This document shows positions 3,988 to 20,811 of a stretch of 24,756 nt of DNA, piece after piece. A program made the translations under genes and the position numbers. Numbering within the stretch: the stretch's first letter is position 1; each line of letters opens with the position of its first letter. The DNA lies in the IMG/VR virus record IMGVR_UViG_3300046471_000131, positions 1-24,756 of that record; one strand, written 5' to 3'. This stretch comes from a virus. The notes beneath the pieces were generated by a model. It was not told the DNA's origin and did no database searches. It worked only from the letters and a program-made list of their open reading frames with translations.

Positions 3988-4578
3988 CTATAGGAATGCG
4001 CTGATGGCTGCCCCTATCTTGAGGATGTTCGCCGCATGAGGAAGGGACGATAAAAGTGCAGTGACGATAGATCGCTTTGGCTTACCACCAACGAACTGCT
4101 GCTGGATTTCATCGACAATTTCCAGCGCCTCAACCTTCTCCTCAGGAGTTAAGCTTACGGAGGAAAGTTCTCGACGCAACTCATCTAAATGCATACCGAC
4201 CTGAGAGTTGACTACCGCTAGGTTCGTAGAGTTATCTACTGATTCAATATTGACTCGAGAATTATTTCCAGTGAGGTTATACGTAATCCTCTGGACTGCT
4301 GCCTTAGCCTCTGGCAGACCAAGCTTTTTCACCTTCAGCTGATAGTGCGCGCCCCCAGGGCCTCTCTCATAAAATACAGGGTCAACGACTTCGTATGTCT
4401 CCTCGTCACCATTCGAGAGCTTTCGCCGAAGAAGGTCAGTAGGCTTTACGACAATCGATTTCCCGCGATTTGCCCCCATTTTGATCACGATAAGATTGCT
4501 TCCGCTTACCGTCGAAAATATTCCTTCAGTCACACTCCCATCAGGCTTCAGCAAATCCACTCTGTCTTGATCGAACAT
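3988..4578 (-). CDS. Unknown AT-rich cargo protein
   Basis: I do not recognise this 196-aa protein. The N-terminal 70 residues are rich in short beta-type segments (FSTVSGSNLIVIKMG, GKSIVVKPTDLLRR) and could be a small barrel. A middle region has a repeated N-x-S/N pattern (NLTGNNSRVNIESVDNSTN). A charged helix follows (about 128-155), then a C-terminal hydrophobic helix, ANILKIGAAISAFL. Beta-part, Asn/Ser linker and terminal amphipathic or membrane-seeking helix are compatible with a membrane-acting effector, but that is a guess. An AAGGAG precedes the ATG by 10 nt. Base composition is clearly more AT-rich than the flanking packaging and lysis genes, suggesting separate acquisition. A candidate terminator follows it. 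Confidence 0.75.
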   Translation of the reverse strand: MFDQDRVDLLKPDGSVTEGIFSTVSGSNLIVIKMGANRGKSIVVKPTDLLRRKLSNGDEETYEVVDPVFYERGPGGAHYQLKVKKLGLPEAKAAVQRITYNLTGNNSRVNIESVDNSTNLAVVNSQVGMHLDELRRELSSVSLTPEEKVEALEIVDEIQQQFVGGKPKRSIVTALLSSLPHAANILKIGAAISAFL

Positions 4579-4647
4579 CGACGTCTAGCTCCTTTGTTTG
4601 ATGTTAAGAGTGGATCGTAGACAGAAACCCTCGCTTTGCCAGTAATA

Positions 4648-5001
4648 CTATTTCAACTGCTTCCTGCGCTCGCTCCCTTCCGGCCTCCTATCACAGCGCA
4701 GGCAGTGATCACAGTTCAACGTCCGACAGAGCAAGGTTTTCACCCGCTGCCACCAGATGACCATGAAGATGTGGCGCATGGCGGCAAGAGCCAGCGAGAC
4801 GTGCAGCGTGATCCCGGCGGTGGTTGGCCCCATCATGAAGATGTTCTGCTCCCGGCTCATCACGACAAACCCGCTGATGGCGATCGCCGAATAGATCAGC
4901 TTGCCGATGACGCCGTCCTGCACTCGACCGCTCAGAACACACCAGATCGCCCACAAGGCAATCAAGCCGCAGGCGATAGAGTTGATCAGTTCAAGATTCA
5001 T
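4648..5001 (-). CDS. Small three-helix membrane protein of the lysis region
   Basis: This 117-aa protein shows three hydrophobic segments (about residues 4-22, 34-50 and 56-81). A positively charged tail follows, containing a cysteine cluster C-x4-C-x2-C-x2-C (CRTLNCDHCLRC). Its start overlaps the stop of the preceding membrane protein by 4 bp (ATGA), with a GGAGG about 9 nt upstream. A holin or antiholin pair partner is the natural reading of two adjacent small membrane genes between the Q-position gene and the terminase. The cysteine-rich tail is unusual for a holin and could bind metal. No endolysin is visible beside it. Confidence 0.75.
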   Translation of the reverse strand: MNLELINSIACGLIALWAIWCVLSGRVQDGVIGKLIYSAIAISGFVVMSREQNIFMMGPTTAGITLHVSLALAAMRHIFMVIWWQRVKTLLCRTLNCDHCLRCDRRPEGSERRKQLK

Positions 5002-5481: not shown

Positions 5482-5736
5482 CTATGCGAAATCGATTTTT
5501 ACGTCGTAGTTTCCGCCGTTGAGACTTAAATGCACTCGAGAAGACCCATACGCCTCTGACAGGCGAATTCGCAACTCCTCTCCAATCAGACGCGCGCGAT
5601 CAGGATGATCATCTCCGAAGGAAACACTGGTTTCGAAGGGTTCCCCAGTAAAGCGCTTATCCAAAAAATGCTCCGACGCCATCTTCTGCATAGCTTCGGT
5701 GATCCTGCTTACCTCGATTGTTGCTTCGCGATCCAT
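5482..5736 (-). CDS. Small unknown protein
   Basis: This 84-aa protein is not recognised. It is acidic and mixed alpha/beta, with a helix rich in charged residues (HPDRARLIGEELRIRLSEAY) and a beta-like end (VHLSLNGGNYDVKIDF). An ATG at 5748 is also open, but the ATG at 5736 has a GGAG 6 nt upstream and is preferred. It is a single-gene unit bounded by terminators at 5785-5812 and 5424-5449, and it is more AT-rich than the nin-type genes. That makes it a likely independently expressed cargo gene. Confidence 0.7.
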   Translation of the reverse strand: MDREATIEVSRITEAMQKMASEHFLDKRFTGEPFETSVSFGDDHPDRARLIGEELRIRLSEAYGSSRVHLSLNGGNYDVKIDFA

Positions 5737-5784
5737 CACAAGCTCCATCTATAAATTGGATGCAAATGATTTCACAAGTCACAA

Positions 5785-5812
5785 AAAGCAAAAAGCCCTA
5801 CTTAAGCAGGGC
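5785..5812 (-). terminator. Intrinsic terminator
   Basis: On the minus strand GCCCTGC-TTAA-GTAGGGC (one G-T wobble) is followed by TTTTTGCTTTTTG. It is directly downstream of the 5831-6136 gene. Confidence 0.82.
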
Positions 5813-5830
5813 CTCTAAAATCTGATGGAT

Positions 5831-6136
5831 TTACTTTAAGCCAAGAGTTGCAGCATAAAGCCGAATCATTTCTATTGCCTGAAGGCCATCGCGGGTGATC
5901 CCGTGAATGATCGACATTTCTGTCACTGGCTTGTCGATAGCGATAATCCCAGCCAACTCGGCGTGTTTCAAAGCCTCCAGCGCGACTGTTGCATTGGCGA
6001 ATTGAAGCGCGTCAGTGTGACGATCAGGCAGCTCACTATCCAAATACTCCGAAACCAGCATCGGAGAGTTCTTTAGCGAGTCAACGTAATGACGAAGATT
6101 TTCCAAATCCTTTGAAACTTTGGCCACTTTAAGCAT
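5831..6136 (-). CDS. Small unknown protein, possible winged helix
   Basis: This 101-aa protein is unknown. The C-terminal half (VALEALKHAELAGIIAIDK, then ITRDGLQAIEMIRLYA) looks like the end of a winged-helix fold of the 'short helix, wing, GI/GL-x-x-I' type. A regulator is possible but weakly supported. The start is ambiguous. The ATG at 6136 is preceded immediately by AAGG with no spacer, whereas a GTG three codons later (6127) sits 8-9 nt after AAAGGA and fits ribosome rules better. It is AT-rich, stands alone, and is flanked by terminators on both sides. Confidence 0.7.
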   Translation of the reverse strand: MLKVAKVSKDLENLRHYVDSLKNSPMLVSEYLDSELPDRHTDALQFANATVALEALKHAELAGIIAIDKPVTEMSIIHGITRDGLQAIEMIRLYAATLGLK

Positions 6137-6190
6137 CCTTTCGTGATTAGCTATTTTAACGATACAGTAATCGCTCTTAGGCTAAACATA

Positions 6191-6218
6191 CAAAATAAAA
6201 CCCGCGCTTGGCCGGGTT
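6191..6218 (-). terminator. Intrinsic terminator after the Q-position gene
   Basis: On the minus strand AACCCG and CGGGTT pair around an 8-nt loop and are followed by TTTATTTTG. It closes the early leftward (replication/nin) operon about 75 bp beyond the Q-position gene. Confidence 0.72.
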
Positions 6219-6294
6219 CAGGCTTTGGTGTGCGTTTCGCGTTACTTGTGCACTATGGGAAAAGTACGCGCAAATCCCCGTCATGTCAATATGA

Positions 6295-6972
6295 TTATGC
6301 CGCCTCTTGATCTTTTTCCGAGCGGATCACCTGCCATAGTGGTTGTTGAGCCTGAATATCCACTTCCTTTATCACTTCTTTAAGGGATTCCCACAGGTCG
6401 AGCCAGTCCCTCGTCCAGTTCTTCGGGTCGATGGTGAGGCCGAAGAACGTGTTCATCTCGGCTGCTACCCGCGCCGGCCCCCACTCTGCCGATCCGGCGA
6501 CCTCCCCCTTGTACGATTGCAGGGCCAGAGTAACTAGGTACTGCGCCTTCACGCGCTTGGCCGAGGTCAGGTCTGGCAGCGCAGCTTTGGCGGTAATCAG
6601 CAGCACAGCATTCAGCAAATGCCGCATGTTCATCGCCGGGTGATACAGGTAGTGCCCAAACTGCTGGACCTGGAACGGCAACGTATCGATCGCGCGCAGC
6701 ACTTTGCCGATCATGGCCAGGTGCGCGGCGCGGGCGGTGGATCGGCCAAGGGGAGTACGCCGCGTCTCGCTGATGCTGACCCTCTGGCGAACGATCTCGA
6801 TGCGCTCTTCCTTGTCATCACCCATCGCAGCAAACACGGCCTCATGCCGGCGCATGCGGGCGCCCTTCTTCACCGGTGCCGATTCACCCCGCTCAATTGC
6901 TACAGCACTGATCGACGCGTTCGATTCGTGCTGAGCCTCAGTCCATACCTGCCTTGCGTTGATCAGTTTCAT
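6295..6972 (-). CDS. Q-position protein, candidate late antiterminator
   Basis: This protein of 225 aa starts at the ATG overlapping the ninG stop by 4 bp (ATGA). The longer open frame upstream is just the other frame of ninG. It has a basic N-terminal half (SAPVKKGARMRRHEAVFAAM, then SISETRRTPLGRSTARAAHL) and a helical C-terminal half ending in a Trp-rich WTRDWLDLWESL segment. I see no clear zinc motif as found in lambda Q. It is the last gene of the early leftward operon, after ninB and ninG and just before terminators and lysis genes. That is where the late-gene antiterminator sits in lambdoid phages. The Q role is inferred from position only. Confidence 0.7.
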   Translation of the reverse strand: MKLINARQVWTEAQHESNASISAVAIERGESAPVKKGARMRRHEAVFAAMGDDKEERIEIVRQRVSISETRRTPLGRSTARAAHLAMIGKVLRAIDTLPFQVQQFGHYLYHPAMNMRHLLNAVLLITAKAALPDLTSAKRVKAQYLVTLALQSYKGEVAGSAEWGPARVAAEMNTFFGLTIDPKNWTRDWLDLWESLKEVIKEVDIQAQQPLWQVIRSEKDQEAA

Positions 6973-10881: not shown

Positions 10882-11097
10882 TTAAGCGGCTATCTCGGCC
10901 CAAGGAAACGAAGGGCATAGGTTTTCTTTTTTGAAAGCGCCTCCGGTCAATGCTTCCGCTCGCTTGGCAATAACCGGAGACATGCCGTGCTTCCCTCGAA
11001 CCCAACCGGAAACGGTGCTTTGATCAACCTTGAGCTTTTCGGCGGTGGCCTCCTGAGTGCCGAAGTAGTCAACGAGTCCCTTGTAAATTGCATTCAT
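10882..11097 (-). CDS. YdaS-like Cro repressor
   Basis: This 71-aa protein has a helix-turn-helix in YFGTQEATAEKLKVDQSTVSGWVRG (about residues 11-35), the signature of YdaS/Cro-type proteins. It should bind the operators at 11110-11173 and shut off repressor synthesis on entry to the lytic cycle. The frame is open to 11124, but the ATG at 11097 has a strong GGAGGA 5 nt upstream, and the longer start would lie within the operator. It is the first gene of the leftward early operon. Confidence 0.85.
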   Translation of the reverse strand: MNAIYKGLVDYFGTQEATAEKLKVDQSTVSGWVRGKHGMSPVIAKRAEALTGGAFKKENLCPSFPWAEIAA

Positions 11098-11109
11098 GAC
11101 GCTCCTCCA

Positions 11110-11173
11110 TACGGGAATACCCATATATTAGGTTATGGGAATACCGATTTGCAAGAGTATGGGAGCGCCCGTA
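11110..11173. promoter_or_regulatory. Tripartite immunity operator (OR analogue)
   Basis: Three 16-bp sites lie at exact 24-bp spacing: TACGGGAATACCCATA (11110-11125), TATGGGAATACCGATT (11134-11149) and TATGGGAGCGCCCGTA (11158-11173). The consensus is a near-palindrome, TATGGGAATACCCATA. The first two cover the leftward promoter and the third covers the spacer of the rightward one, the same logic as lambda OR1-OR3. Regular 24-bp phasing allows cooperative binding on one DNA face. Confidence 0.88.
11125..11154 (-). promoter_or_regulatory. pR-like promoter for the Cro operon
   Basis: On the minus strand the -35 is TTGCAA (11154-11149), the spacer is 18 bp and the -10 is TAATAT (11130-11125). 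The middle operator fills the spacer and the left operator abuts the -10, so repressor bound there would block it. Confidence 0.6.
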
Positions 11174-11184: not shown

Positions 11185-11916
11185 ATGGAATTCAAAGACC
11201 GACTTAAAGCAGCCCGCAGCCACGCCAAGCTTAATCAGACAGAGCTTGCGGAGCGTGCTGGCCTCACCCAGACCTCAATCTCCGATTTGGAGAGGGGTAA
11301 ATCGAAGGCTACAGCCTTCGCGGCTCAGATCGCCTCAGTTTGTGGCGTATCCCCTATGTGGCTGGCGGAGGGCGTCGGCGAAATGATCAAGGGCGTCCCC
11401 GAAGAGCAACTTCAGCGGATCCAGCCCAGCGTAAAACTCGGCAACATCGAGACTTGGGACGACGAAACGCCGCTCGATGACGATGAGGTCTACGTTCCCT
11501 TTCTTCATGAAGTAGAACTAGCAGCAGGATCTGGCACGTTTGCAATTGAGGAAAGCGCTAATTCCCGTCTGCGCTTCTTTAAGAAAGACCTTCGCCATAA
11601 CGGCGTTCAGTTTAGCAACGCTAAGTGCGTGAGGGTTGGTGGAAATAGCATGGTGCCGGTGCTGCGTGACGGCGCCACTGTTGGCGTGAACGTTGGAAAA
11701 AACTCGCTAAGCGATATTGTCGACGGCGAGATGTACGCCATCAACCACAACGGTCAGCTTCGTGTAAAACAGGTTTACCGCATCCCGACCGGGCTTCGCC
11801 TGCGCAGCTTCAACCGTGAAGAGCATCCGGACGAGGACTACACATTCCAGCAAATTCAAGAGCAGCAAATTTCGCTTTTAGGGCATGTGTTTTGGTGGGC
11901 AATGTATTCAAGATAA
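11185..11916 (+). CDS. cI: CI-type phage repressor (HTH plus S24 peptidase)
   Basis: This 243-aa protein has an XRE-type HTH at residues 8-62 (LNQTELAERAGLTQTSISDL) and a C-terminal LexA/CI S24 self-cleavage domain. The catalytic serine is S155 in GNSMVP, the lysine is K195 in LRVKQVY, and the probable cleavage bond is A114-G115 in LAAGSG. It keeps the prophage silent by binding the operators at 11110-11173 and 13558-13598. It should self-cleave when RecA is activated by DNA damage. The frame is open back to 10987, but the earlier part runs through the operators and lacks a ribosome site; the ATG at 11185 begins the HTH and matches a leaderless start. Confidence 0.93.
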   Translation: MEFKDRLKAARSHAKLNQTELAERAGLTQTSISDLERGKSKATAFAAQIASVCGVSPMWLAEGVGEMIKGVPEEQLQRIQPSVKLGNIETWDDETPLDDDEVYVPFLHEVELAAGSGTFAIEESANSRLRFFKKDLRHNGVQFSNAKCVRVGGNSMVPVLRDGATVGVNVGKNSLSDIVDGEMYAINHNGQLRVKQVYRIPTGLRLRSFNREEHPDEDYTFQQIQEQQISLLGHVFWWAMYSR

Positions 11917-11949: not shown

Positions 11950-13395
11950 ATGAATGATAGCGCAAGCCAACTATTGACAAATCTAGTTAAAGTACATAGA
12001 GAAATTGAAGAAAAAGACTTTGAAAAAATCTGGAAGGAGGGAATTTTTGTTTTCGACTCCAACGTTCTCCTGGATTTATATCGCCTTCCCGAGTCTGCAA
12101 GCAAAGACCTCCTGAAAGTTCTCAAAAATAAAGACTTCACTGATCGCATCTGGATAGGCTTTCAGGTAATGGTGGAATTCCTGAACAATCGCCATGAAGC
12201 AATTAGTGATCAGAAAAATAAATTTGAAGAGGTCAGGAAACATCTTGCGCACTCTATGTCTCAGTATCATGAAACATTCAGCACGCTAACCAACTCCCTT
12301 AAGGGCTTAAAACTAAAGCAGCGCCACTCGCTTATCGACCCAGACAAATACATCAACGAACAGAAAATAAATTCCGGCGTAGAATTCATTGAAGAATTTA
12401 TTGAGCATTTAAACTCCCTTGAAAAAAAACAGTCCGATGTCAATGACAAAGATACGATAAAAAGTATCGTACTCAGTCTTTTCGAGGGCAAGATAGGCCA
12501 AGGCTTCACCAAATCCGAACTTGAAAAGCATTACGAAGCAGGCGAAAAGCGGTATGTAAACAGTATCCCTCCAGGGTATAAAGACAAAGCAAAAACTGGA
12601 TCTTACCTCGTAGACGAACGGGAATTCATTCGCAAGTTTGGCGATCTCATTCTATGGCATGAAATAACACGAAAAGCAAAAGCAGAAAGCTTAAAGTATA
12701 TAGTACTAGTAACTGGCGACGTTAAAGAAGACTGGTGGTATGAAAAACGAGGTAAGAAATTAGGACCCCGGAAGGAGCTACTGAATGAGATCTATCACGC
12801 GGCTCCAGAGTTAGAATTCTTTCACATGTATGACACCTCGAACTTTCTATTACGAGCCAGAGATGCATTCAGCATTAATGTCCAAGAGTCGTCAATCAAG
12901 GAAGCAAAAAACCTCATTGAAAATAGCCGCACAGACAGTTCAAGCAACGATGTAGGCGCAATCTCACTGCAGCAGTTATTGTTAAAAATAAGCGGACACT
13001 TCTCCAACGCAAACTTAAAAATGACCGCAGCCTTCCAGCGCGTACCACCGTTAACCTGTAATGAAAATTTGCTTTATGATGCTTTTTTTGAGTTTTTCTC
13101 CATCTGTTTAACATACGGAAAAGGCAGCAGCATTATTGCAGGTGCTGGTACTCAAAATGGACAGCTAACGGTGCGTATCCAAAATAAATTACCTGATGAG
13201 CCTGCGTATGATTTGCTTCGTTCTGGCGAAAATGACGAGATGTTTAGTTCCAACTTATCAAGGATTCGACTAAGCCTTACAAAAGAAGGAATAACAAGTA
13301 CAGTTAAGTATGCCGCCCAGAAATTCTTGGTGGATGTCACTTTTTCCACCGAAAAACTTCTCAAGCAAATCACCACGCTTGCTGAGGACGTATAA
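11950..13395 (+). CDS. PIN-like nuclease fused to an unknown C-terminal domain, rex position
   Basis: This 481-aa protein has an N-terminal PIN-like domain (about residues 30-300) of the long type with a helical insert. Candidate metal-binding acids are D36 (FVFDSN), E76 (VMVEFLNN), D232 (FGDLILW) and D257/D261 (VTGDVKED). PIN proteins are usually metal-dependent RNases. The C-terminal part (about 335-470) is separate; its ENLLYDAFFEFFS helix and two later beta-rich stretches recall a degraded GHKL/histidine-kinase ATPase fold, without the usual GxGxG box. The gene is strongly AT-rich against its neighbours. It starts 33 bp after cI with no promoter evident between, so it should be expressed with cI in the lysogen, as lambda rexAB is. 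Defence against other phages is an inference. Confidence 0.82.
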   Translation: MNDSASQLLTNLVKVHREIEEKDFEKIWKEGIFVFDSNVLLDLYRLPESASKDLLKVLKNKDFTDRIWIGFQVMVEFLNNRHEAISDQKNKFEEVRKHLAHSMSQYHETFSTLTNSLKGLKLKQRHSLIDPDKYINEQKINSGVEFIEEFIEHLNSLEKKQSDVNDKDTIKSIVLSLFEGKIGQGFTKSELEKHYEAGEKRYVNSIPPGYKDKAKTGSYLVDEREFIRKFGDLILWHEITRKAKAESLKYIVLVTGDVKEDWWYEKRGKKLGPRKELLNEIYHAAPELEFFHMYDTSNFLLRARDAFSINVQESSIKEAKNLIENSRTDSSSNDVGAISLQQLLLKISGHFSNANLKMTAAFQRVPPLTCNENLLYDAFFEFFSICLTYGKGSSIIAGAGTQNGQLTVRIQNKLPDEPAYDLLRSGENDEMFSSNLSRIRLSLTKEGITSTVKYAAQKFLVDVTFSTEKLLKQITTLAEDV

Positions 13396-13435
13396 GGCAA
13401 TATTCGGAATCTAATATCGATAGATTGCCCTTTTT
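13396..13435 (+). terminator. Candidate intrinsic terminator of the cI-PIN operon
   Basis: GGCAAT and ATTGCC (13396-13401 / 13424-13429) enclose a competing AATCTA / TAGATT hairpin and are followed by CTTTTT. It begins at the base after the PIN gene stop. The stem is weak, but the location is right. Confidence 0.5.
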
Positions 13436-13557: not shown

Positions 13558-13600
13558 TATGGGTATTCCCATTGACGATAAATATGGGATTGCCTATATT
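13558..13600 (+). promoter_or_regulatory. pL-like early promoter with two repressor operators
   Basis: The -35 is TTGACG (13572-13577), the spacer is 17 bp and the -10 is TATATT (13595-13600), a strong sigma-70 match. Operator copies TATGGGTATTCCCATT (13558-13573) and TATGGGATTGCCTATA (13583-13598) overlap the -35 and the spacer/-10, spaced 25 bp. They match the cI-proximal operators, so this is the second repressor-controlled promoter, driving the rightward early operon from about 13607. Confidence 0.87.
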
Positions 13601-13926: not shown

Positions 13927-14199
13927 ATGCAAATCAACACGCAGAAAACAGTGCAGGTCGACGTGACTGAACTGCACCTCTACATCAAGGTGCGCGATGG
14001 ATTCGCCGCAGGTCTGAAAGATGCTCAGGGCGAGGAAGTCGGCAGCTATGAAGGCTACGTGCCGGACTTCTTCCCCGGCCAGCACTACGGCGACTACTTG
14101 ATCCTGAACATCGATCTGGAAACCGGGCAGATCAAGAACTGGAAGAAGCCTGGCGCCGCTGACATTGAGAAGATGCTCGCCCAAGGCGAAGACGACTGA
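13927..14199 (+). CDS. Small unknown early protein
   Basis: This 90-aa acidic protein is of a type common in Pseudomonas phages but without a known role. It begins MQINTQKTVQVDV. A beta-rich N-terminal half (VTELHLYIKVRDGF), a GQHYGDYLILNID block and a short C-terminal helix are visible. A GGAGG lies 7 nt before the ATG at 13927. The frame is open back to 13753, and an ATG at 13771 would add 52 residues beginning MQASRRRTPNTK. That ATG's ribosome site lies in a hairpin arm, so a longer form is possible. It is the first gene of the pL operon. Confidence 0.8.
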   Translation: MQINTQKTVQVDVTELHLYIKVRDGFAAGLKDAQGEEVGSYEGYVPDFFPGQHYGDYLILNIDLETGQIKNWKKPGAADIEKMLAQGEDD

Positions 14200-19613: not shown

Positions 19614-20138
19614 AGCTGCCGCTACTGCGGTGCTCATGACAATAACGGCCCATCGAGAAATTGATTTGAGCAACACGAAAGATGGTTCACCGCGCTTAAC
19701 TCTCTCCCATTCGGTTTTGAGAATCACCTGCGTCTCGCTAGCGAGATTCTCCATGTGAGCCTCCATCAAACTGTCGGAAGCTCCTATTCCTTCCGTATCT
19801 TTGACCAGAGTCAAAAGCTCATTGTGCTCCTCGGGATTGAGGCGAAGCCTAATTCGGGCGGATAGCATGGCTGTTTCTAAAAAATCCTTTTCTTTTGAAA
19901 GTATGAATTTCTGAATGTCTTGCTGGGGCTGTTTCCGAACAATGGCGGAAAGTGTTTTAACCACTGCAAGGTGGGCAATAAGTTGTGATACGTCATTGCG
20001 AAGCCCGTCAATCCAAGCTTGCCTAAACTCAGAGGTCTTTTGATCCTTCGAAAGGATCGACACCACAAGAGAAACAACACCTGCTATCAACGCCACAGCC
20101 AAAGTGGCAGAAATCGTAAACAATACTTCGTTATTCAT
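19563..20138 (-). CDS. Two-helix membrane protein, opposite-strand cargo
   Basis: This 191-aa protein has a membrane helix at about residues 7-28 and a second near 162-184, with a soluble helical middle (EFRQAWIDGLRNDVSQLIAH, then ARIRLRLNPEEHNELL). I have seen the EFRQAWI-x-x-LR-x-D pattern in unnamed bacterial membrane proteins but cannot name a family. It is AT-rich and lies against the direction of the rightward early operon, so it needs its own promoter and could be expressed in the lysogen. Superinfection exclusion or an abortive-type membrane effector is a reasonable hypothesis only. Confidence 0.72.
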   Translation of the reverse strand: MNNEVLFTISATLAVALIAGVVSLVVSILSKDQKTSEFRQAWIDGLRNDVSQLIAHLAVVKTLSAIVRKQPQQDIQKFILSKEKDFLETAMLSARIRLRLNPEEHNELLTLVKDTEGIGASDSLMEAHMENLASETQVILKTEWERVKRGEPSFVLLKSISRWAVIVMSTAVAAASVALAIAYRGIPITLG

Positions 20139-20225
20139 TGATAGACCTGAGCACGAAAATTATCGACGGCCAGAACATCAGCCCTATTCAAATATCTGTA
20201 ATTGAACACGAAAAATAATCTTGAG

Positions 20226-20414
20226 TCAGACAAGGCTCGGCGCCTCAACCAACCGATGCGCCGACTCCATGTAGCTGGCCAGGTCGATTACCTCCCGAAG
20301 GAACACGACCACCTCCAGCTTCACTGCATCGTCAGGCAGCCCTATCCGTTTCAGCATCGCTTTAGCGTCCTCTTCGATAGCCACCAGCGCGTCTACATCG
20401 CTCTGCAACCTCAT
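20226..20414 (-). CDS. Small unknown protein, opposite strand
   Basis: This 62-aa acidic helical protein starts MRLQSDVDALVAIEEDAKAM. A strong AGGAGG lies 5 nt before the ATG, which is the main support for its reality. It belongs to a group of three short minus-strand genes (20226-21178) inside the rightward operon. Confidence 0.6.
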   Translation of the reverse strand: MRLQSDVDALVAIEEDAKAMLKRIGLPDDAVKLEVVVFLREVIDLASYMESAHRLVEAPSLV

Positions 20415-20451
20415 GTCGGCCTCCTGCCAGTGTGAGATAGAAGTGAAGCGA

Positions 20452-20742
20452 TTAAGTGTACTGGTCGTTGGAGGACATCAGCCAGTAGAGCTCCCAAAGA
20501 TCCTTAAAGCAGCGCTCGATATCTGGATGGCTAATTGCGGTAGGGAGGCTTGGCTCGTACGTGCCGGAATACTCCACGATGCTCTCGAATAATTCACGAG
20601 CGTACTCATCTGGAAATTCGTCCGGCCGCAAAGCCATCAACTCTTGATGAACAGCGCGCAATCGCATGTGTTTTTCCACACCGGTGGCAGCGGCTTCCAG
20701 TGCATCAGTGAGTCGTTTCACTGTTGAATGTGGATCCTTCAT
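20452..20742 (-). CDS. Small unknown protein, opposite strand
   Basis: This 96-aa acidic helical protein starts MKDPHSTVKRLTDALEAAAT and ends in an aromatic DLWELYWLMSS segment. A G-run (GGGGGG) 4 nt before the ATG may act as a weak ribosome site. No family is recognised. It is 37 bp upstream of the 62-aa gene on the same strand, so the two could share a transcript. Confidence 0.6.
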   Translation of the reverse strand: MKDPHSTVKRLTDALEAAATGVEKHMRLRAVHQELMALRPDEFPDEYARELFESIVEYSGTYEPSLPTAISHPDIERCFKDLWELYWLMSSNDQYT

Positions 20743-20811
20743 GCATCCCCCCAGAAAATTTATGACAGCCGGAACTGCACTGGTTCACGACTATAGCTGC
20801 GAGGTAACCCC

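Follow-up and report, generated by a model that had tools for sequence, protein, structure and literature searches.

The window analysed here, comprising the whole 24,756-nt stretch of viral DNA, carries a gene for a predicted two-domain protein (hereafter the PIN_8-GHKL gene) between a cI-type repressor gene and an oL/pL-like operator cluster, i.e. in the position that rexAB occupies in lambda (Table 1). Both this placement and the 33-nt distance from cI agree with a preliminary description of the locus. The operator palindromes TATGGGNNTNCCC are matched eight times in the whole window, compared to 0.75 matches expected. The open reading frame is a genuine gene and, as had been claimed, strikingly AT-rich, since its GC content of 0.406 contrasts with at least 0.503 in all segments of the same length (1446 bp) elsewhere. 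Over all copies of the gene, five sites differed in total, four of the changes being synonymous and one conservative, which is a small number of sites. Lowered GC values (0.46-0.51) were also seen at positions 4001-4800, 5601-6400, and 20001-20800 of the window, which may represent further cargo.

Table 1. Features of the immunity region and of the PIN_8-GHKL gene (positions refer to the window)
Feature	Position	Strand	Description
cro-like repressor gene, divergent	10882..11124	-	phrog_35 transcriptional repressor, E 1.6e-13
oR operator cluster	11110..11170	.	palindromes TATGGGNNTNCCC, between cro and cI
cI-type repressor gene	11188..11916	+	phrog_4, E 6.7e-52; upstream partner in presumed pRM transcript
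PIN_8-GHKL gene	11950..13395	+	ATG start, 481 aa, 33 nt after cI, GC 0.406
Predicted PIN_8 nuclease domain	12043..12780	+	residues 32-277; PF18476; acids D36, E76, D232, D257, D261
Predicted GHKL-fold C-terminal domain	12952..13359	+	residues 335-470; Ile385 for N-box Asn, Asn435 for G2 Gly
Possible intrinsic terminator	13396..13435	+	GGCAAT...ATTGCC then CTTTTT; weak
oL operators and pL-like promoter	13558..13600	+	palindromes 13558-13595; TTGACG-17-TATATT

A search of the 33-nt gap between cI and the PIN_8-GHKL gene yielded no promoter-like site, and hence the lysogen is likely to express the gene together with cI, judging from the layout; the arrangement for co-transcription proposed earlier was thus borne out computationally. 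The further proposal that the gene is closed by its own terminator ahead of pL held only in part, as a pL-like site is indeed present but the candidate hairpin is weak, with a 6-bp stem (13396-13401/13424-13429), C-TTTTT downstream of it, and -8.3 kcal/mol, a value equalled by 22 out of 200 shuffled sequences. The terminator scan did not list this hairpin, whose loop exceeds the limit of the scan, and a terminator at this site is plausible but weak. No antitoxin-like gene adjoins the PIN_8-GHKL gene: upstream lies cI, no gene is found downstream before oL, and the next conserved gene begins only past oL, at 13927.

The N-terminal part of the protein (residues 32-277) matched the Pfam family PIN_8 (PF18476, “PIN-like domain-containing protein”) over the entire profile (positions 1-227 of 227) with 194.8 bits (cut-off 26.1; E 2.7e-57), confirming the long-type PIN-like domain that had been suggested from the sequence. 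The candidate catalytic acids named at that time were likewise upheld: an alignment of 17 sequences shows no variation at D36, E76, D257, and D261 and at least 90 % conservation at D232, none of the five varies in a separate set of nine sequences, and the 481-aa protein itself retains every one of them, in common with the PIN_8 family. In the AlphaFold2 model, a long helical insertion sets E76 apart from D232 and thus interrupts the PIN fold along the sequence. Given this fold and these acids, we infer that the domain would act as an intact metal-dependent RNase. Most PIN_8 relatives examined end in another C-terminus, and the GHKL fold is confined to a small subgroup; for instance, two homologues from Flavobacteriia possess a C-terminus without GHKL motifs that looks coiled-coil-like by eye, and more distant PIN_8 proteins bear other C-termini. 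Thus, the nuclease stays constant and the partner domain changes.

PIN domains are known best as VapC-type toxins, and the lysogen-type expression suggested by the layout would fit a role in stability. One could therefore envisage an addiction or stress toxin, whose PIN RNase would retain the prophage or slow growth upon damage while leaving other phages unaffected. However, RexA and other recognised exclusion genes occupy the same slot in sister phages, and the missing antitoxin-like neighbour, which led us to reject a VapBC-type toxin-antitoxin system, also speaks against this alternative, which we regard as rather unlikely.

The C-terminal part of the 481-aa protein had no Pfam match. The closest full-length relative, encoded on the Atlantibacter plasmid pTL13A (WP_284556528.1, 48 % identity over the full length) and sharing the two-domain architecture, matched HATPase_c_5 (PF14501) above the cut-off at residues 383-464, and three other relatives matched the same family below the cut-off. 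A hidden Markov model built from the relatives with the window copy left out scored the window C-terminus with 34.4 bits, as opposed to 7.2 bits for the best of 2000 shuffles, and a profile of the C-termini that included the window copy retrieved the ATP-binding domains of VanS (E 5e-4) and VraS (E 2e-3) from the PDB. The AlphaFold2 model of the full protein reached a mean pLDDT of 83.7 (about 83-89 for residues 341-410), and residues 331-481 modelled alone gave a pLDDT of 81.6 and a pTM of 0.77, so that the C-terminal domain is predicted to be ordered, in line with the separate C-terminal region noticed at the outset. Foldseek searches against the PDB returned histidine-kinase CA/GHKL domains as top matches for the full model (E 3e-7) and histidine-kinase CA domains for the C-terminal domain alone (E 3e-8; TMt 0.73 for the CA domain of VanSA). 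Because the model of the relatives, the PDB profile matches, AlphaFold2, and Foldseek all point the same way, residues 335-470 are predicted to adopt a GHKL (histidine-kinase CA) fold, and a chance similarity is ruled out by the shuffles and the two structure searches. A sensor histidine kinase was rejected as well, as no DHp/HisKA domain was found by Pfam and the CA-like domain is preceded by the PIN domain and a short linker.

Although the window protein shares its C-terminal fold with the histidine-kinase CA domains of VanS, VraS, and AdeS, it differs from these in being joined to a nuclease and in having lost two hallmark residues. In the N-box column, all six aligned relatives possess Asn where the window copy has Ile385, and in the G2-box column all six have Gly where it has Asn435; furthermore, Tyr389 stands in place of an otherwise present His. 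The Atlantibacter protein, unlike the window copy, retains both the N-box Asn and the G2 Gly. The description of the domain as a degraded GHKL domain proved apt, whereas its supposed novelty did not, since the fold is a known one from which this copy has diverged, and less diverged versions occur in relatives. The G1 DxG motif is absent from all seven aligned sequences, with a conserved Asn (N412) near its place, so that ATP hydrolysis is uncertain even in the relatives. Lacking Asn in the N-box and Gly in the G2 box, the GHKL-fold domain of the window copy has probably lost this activity. The protein appears to be an intact nuclease joined to a pseudo-ATPase partner domain.

The two halves of the protein have also diverged unequally. 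The window copy has the shortest terminal branch in the tree of the PIN half (0.27) and the longest in that of the C-terminal half (1.71), giving a C-terminal to PIN branch ratio of about 6, compared to about 2-3 in the others. Together with the missing N-box and G2 residues, such a long C-terminal branch could mean that the domain is decaying instead of sensing, i.e. that the gene arrived as a PIN-GHKL defence gene, that losing its GHKL motifs was the first step of pseudogenisation, and that this copy does little. Yet the reading frame is intact, the PIN half is the least diverged of the set, the C-terminal domain is still predicted to fold with a pLDDT above 80, and the few differences between the gene copies are, but for the conservative one, synonymous; accumulating decay is thus quite unlikely as an explanation.

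Relatives of the protein occur in several genetic contexts. The PIN-like gene of pTL13A lies near genes for SIR2 and an ATP-binding protein and near a restriction-modification system, another relative is located in a different prophage two genes from the integrase and beside a DUF5677-like gene (just under the model cut-off), and the relative of Pseudomonas sp. RIT288 adjoins a DEDDh exonuclease-like gene. Further PIN_8 genes were found in viral contigs, some of them apparently inserted among structural genes. One viral-classed contig possibly holds a defence island (L127:247-7491), in which a PIN_8 gene is found close to a cytosine-methyltransferase-like gene and to a large gene, GHKL-like by eye. 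In genome contigs, patterns from the single protein matched nothing, and those from a two-sequence alignment gave matches. Within the genus of RIT288, 21 out of 399 sampled genomes contained PIN_8 genes related to the family, only two of which had a GHKL C-terminus; in one of these two, the same gene follows the same cI on a contig of 6.7 Mb, where an integrase lies at a distance of about 14 kb, indicating that the module is carried by an integrated prophage. No homologue of the 481-aa protein was detected among the INPHARED phages at E 1e-5, PADLOC with its 2023 defence families assigned none to this protein or to the relative P0001, and no description of the PIN_8-GHKL architecture was found in the literature searched (PF18476, PIN-like/GHKL anti-phage, HATPase plus nuclease).

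The slot itself was surveyed in 80 viral contigs with related CI (L042-L121). In the 31 closest loci (window included), the oR operators lie at a nearly constant offset from the end of cI, and in close relatives where oL was located the distance from cI to oL ranges from 1.1 to 3.4 kb; the GC content of the slot in close relatives is 0.41-0.55, versus 0.56-0.59 in the flanks. Among 27 phage loci with CI at least 90 % identical, 17 different slot gene sets were present. In lambda-like Pseudomonas phages, the stretch between cI and oL is thus a variable cargo hotspot. Its contents over the 80 loci include RexA (in L074, PF15969, E 1.3e-53), IetS, RmrA, PDC-S42, and an AAA_15/AAA_21 ATPase. PADLOC, run on 18 distinct slot families picked by size, gave strong defence matches for five and none for the remaining 13, while a small control of six core genes from the window phage gave no strong defence match besides the HTH matches of cI. 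Hence, with 13 of 18 families lacking a strong match, residence in the slot marks the gene as cargo and no more. The slot at L045:6228-7872, and likewise that of L046, L080, and L084, holds a Peptidase_M78 (ImmA/IrrE-like) gene with a DUF4411 gene behind it, and at L094:5849-9152 a two-gene set stands straight after cI in a phage, its second gene matching IetS (subtilase). Slot clusters without assigned function (e.g. L043, L048, L072, and L085) make up most families and are candidate new exclusion genes.

For RexA, a second role in tuning the lysis-lysogeny switch has been proposed. With its gene directly behind cI and ahead of oL, the PIN_8-GHKL protein might likewise be a phage-internal regulator tuning that switch, e.g. 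by cutting phage transcripts. We deem this very improbable, as sister phages with CI at least 90 % identical carry unrelated genes in the slot instead, and homologues reside on plasmids and in chromosomes without cI.

The statement that genes in this slot commonly mediate exclusion, as had been put forward, is in keeping with the RexA and other recognised exclusion or defence genes of sister phages and with the precedent of RexABpp, a RexAB-type system which is encoded downstream of a CI-like repressor in the P. putida prophage P1 and protects P. putida (PMC12894663). Phage exclusion by genes placed behind a CI-like repressor is thus documented in Pseudomonas. The window gene shares this position behind a CI-type repressor with lambda rexAB and RexABpp, which are two-gene sensor-effector pairs, whereas here a single gene without sequence relation to them is found; a RexA relative was rejected, as the 481-aa protein has no PF15969 match. 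A second precedent is DS-3, a one-protein PIN defence identified by DefensePredictor, which requires its catalytic residues and for which autoinhibition has been proposed (PMC13092281). Going by its published description, DS-3 resembles the window protein as a single protein with a split PIN fold and no antitoxin, although the text (PMC13092281) mentions no GHKL domain, which the window protein has.

We consider it fairly probable, at roughly 60 %, that the PIN_8-GHKL gene is a single-gene, lysogen-expressed exclusion system in the rex slot that is inhibited in cis until infection. The module would be a piece of cargo that a lambda-like Pseudomonas prophage carries in its rex slot, and co-transcription with cI, as the layout suggests, would make the protein present in the lysogen. 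Because no antitoxin-like partner is evident, the PIN_8 RNase would be inhibited in cis, with the GHKL-fold domain as the probable inhibitor. This domain may provide a fast-diverging surface for docking, dimerising, or recognising the trigger. Upon infection, a trigger from the incoming phage would lift this inhibition, and the PIN domain would then cut cellular or phage RNA, thereby aborting the infection. A role in exclusion is favoured because the slot of sister phages carries RexA and the other genes named above, because relatives lie near SIR2 and restriction-modification genes on a plasmid and near an integrase in a prophage, and because four of the five differences between copies are synonymous; the gene thus probably acts against rival viruses. 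The earlier reading as an uncharacterised anti-phage system is supported, and the roles as RNase, in restriction, and as sensor are those we infer. More tentatively, one may envisage a whole family of immune effectors, each encoded by a single gene, that place a PIN_8 RNase under the control of a GHKL-fold domain. In this phage, with the nuclease still constrained and the ATP-site motifs gone, a kinase-type ATPase domain would have turned into a fast-evolving pseudo-enzyme that senses infecting phages.

If true, our interpretation would add a PIN-nuclease/GHKL architecture to the phage-on-phage exclusion systems. The relatives that keep the N-box and G2 residues, set against the copy without them, would provide a built-in comparison for studying the control of a toxic nuclease by a GHKL domain. 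Furthermore, lambda-like Pseudomonas phages have in their rex slot, extending from cI to oL, a bounded cargo hotspot that can be mined for more exclusion genes.
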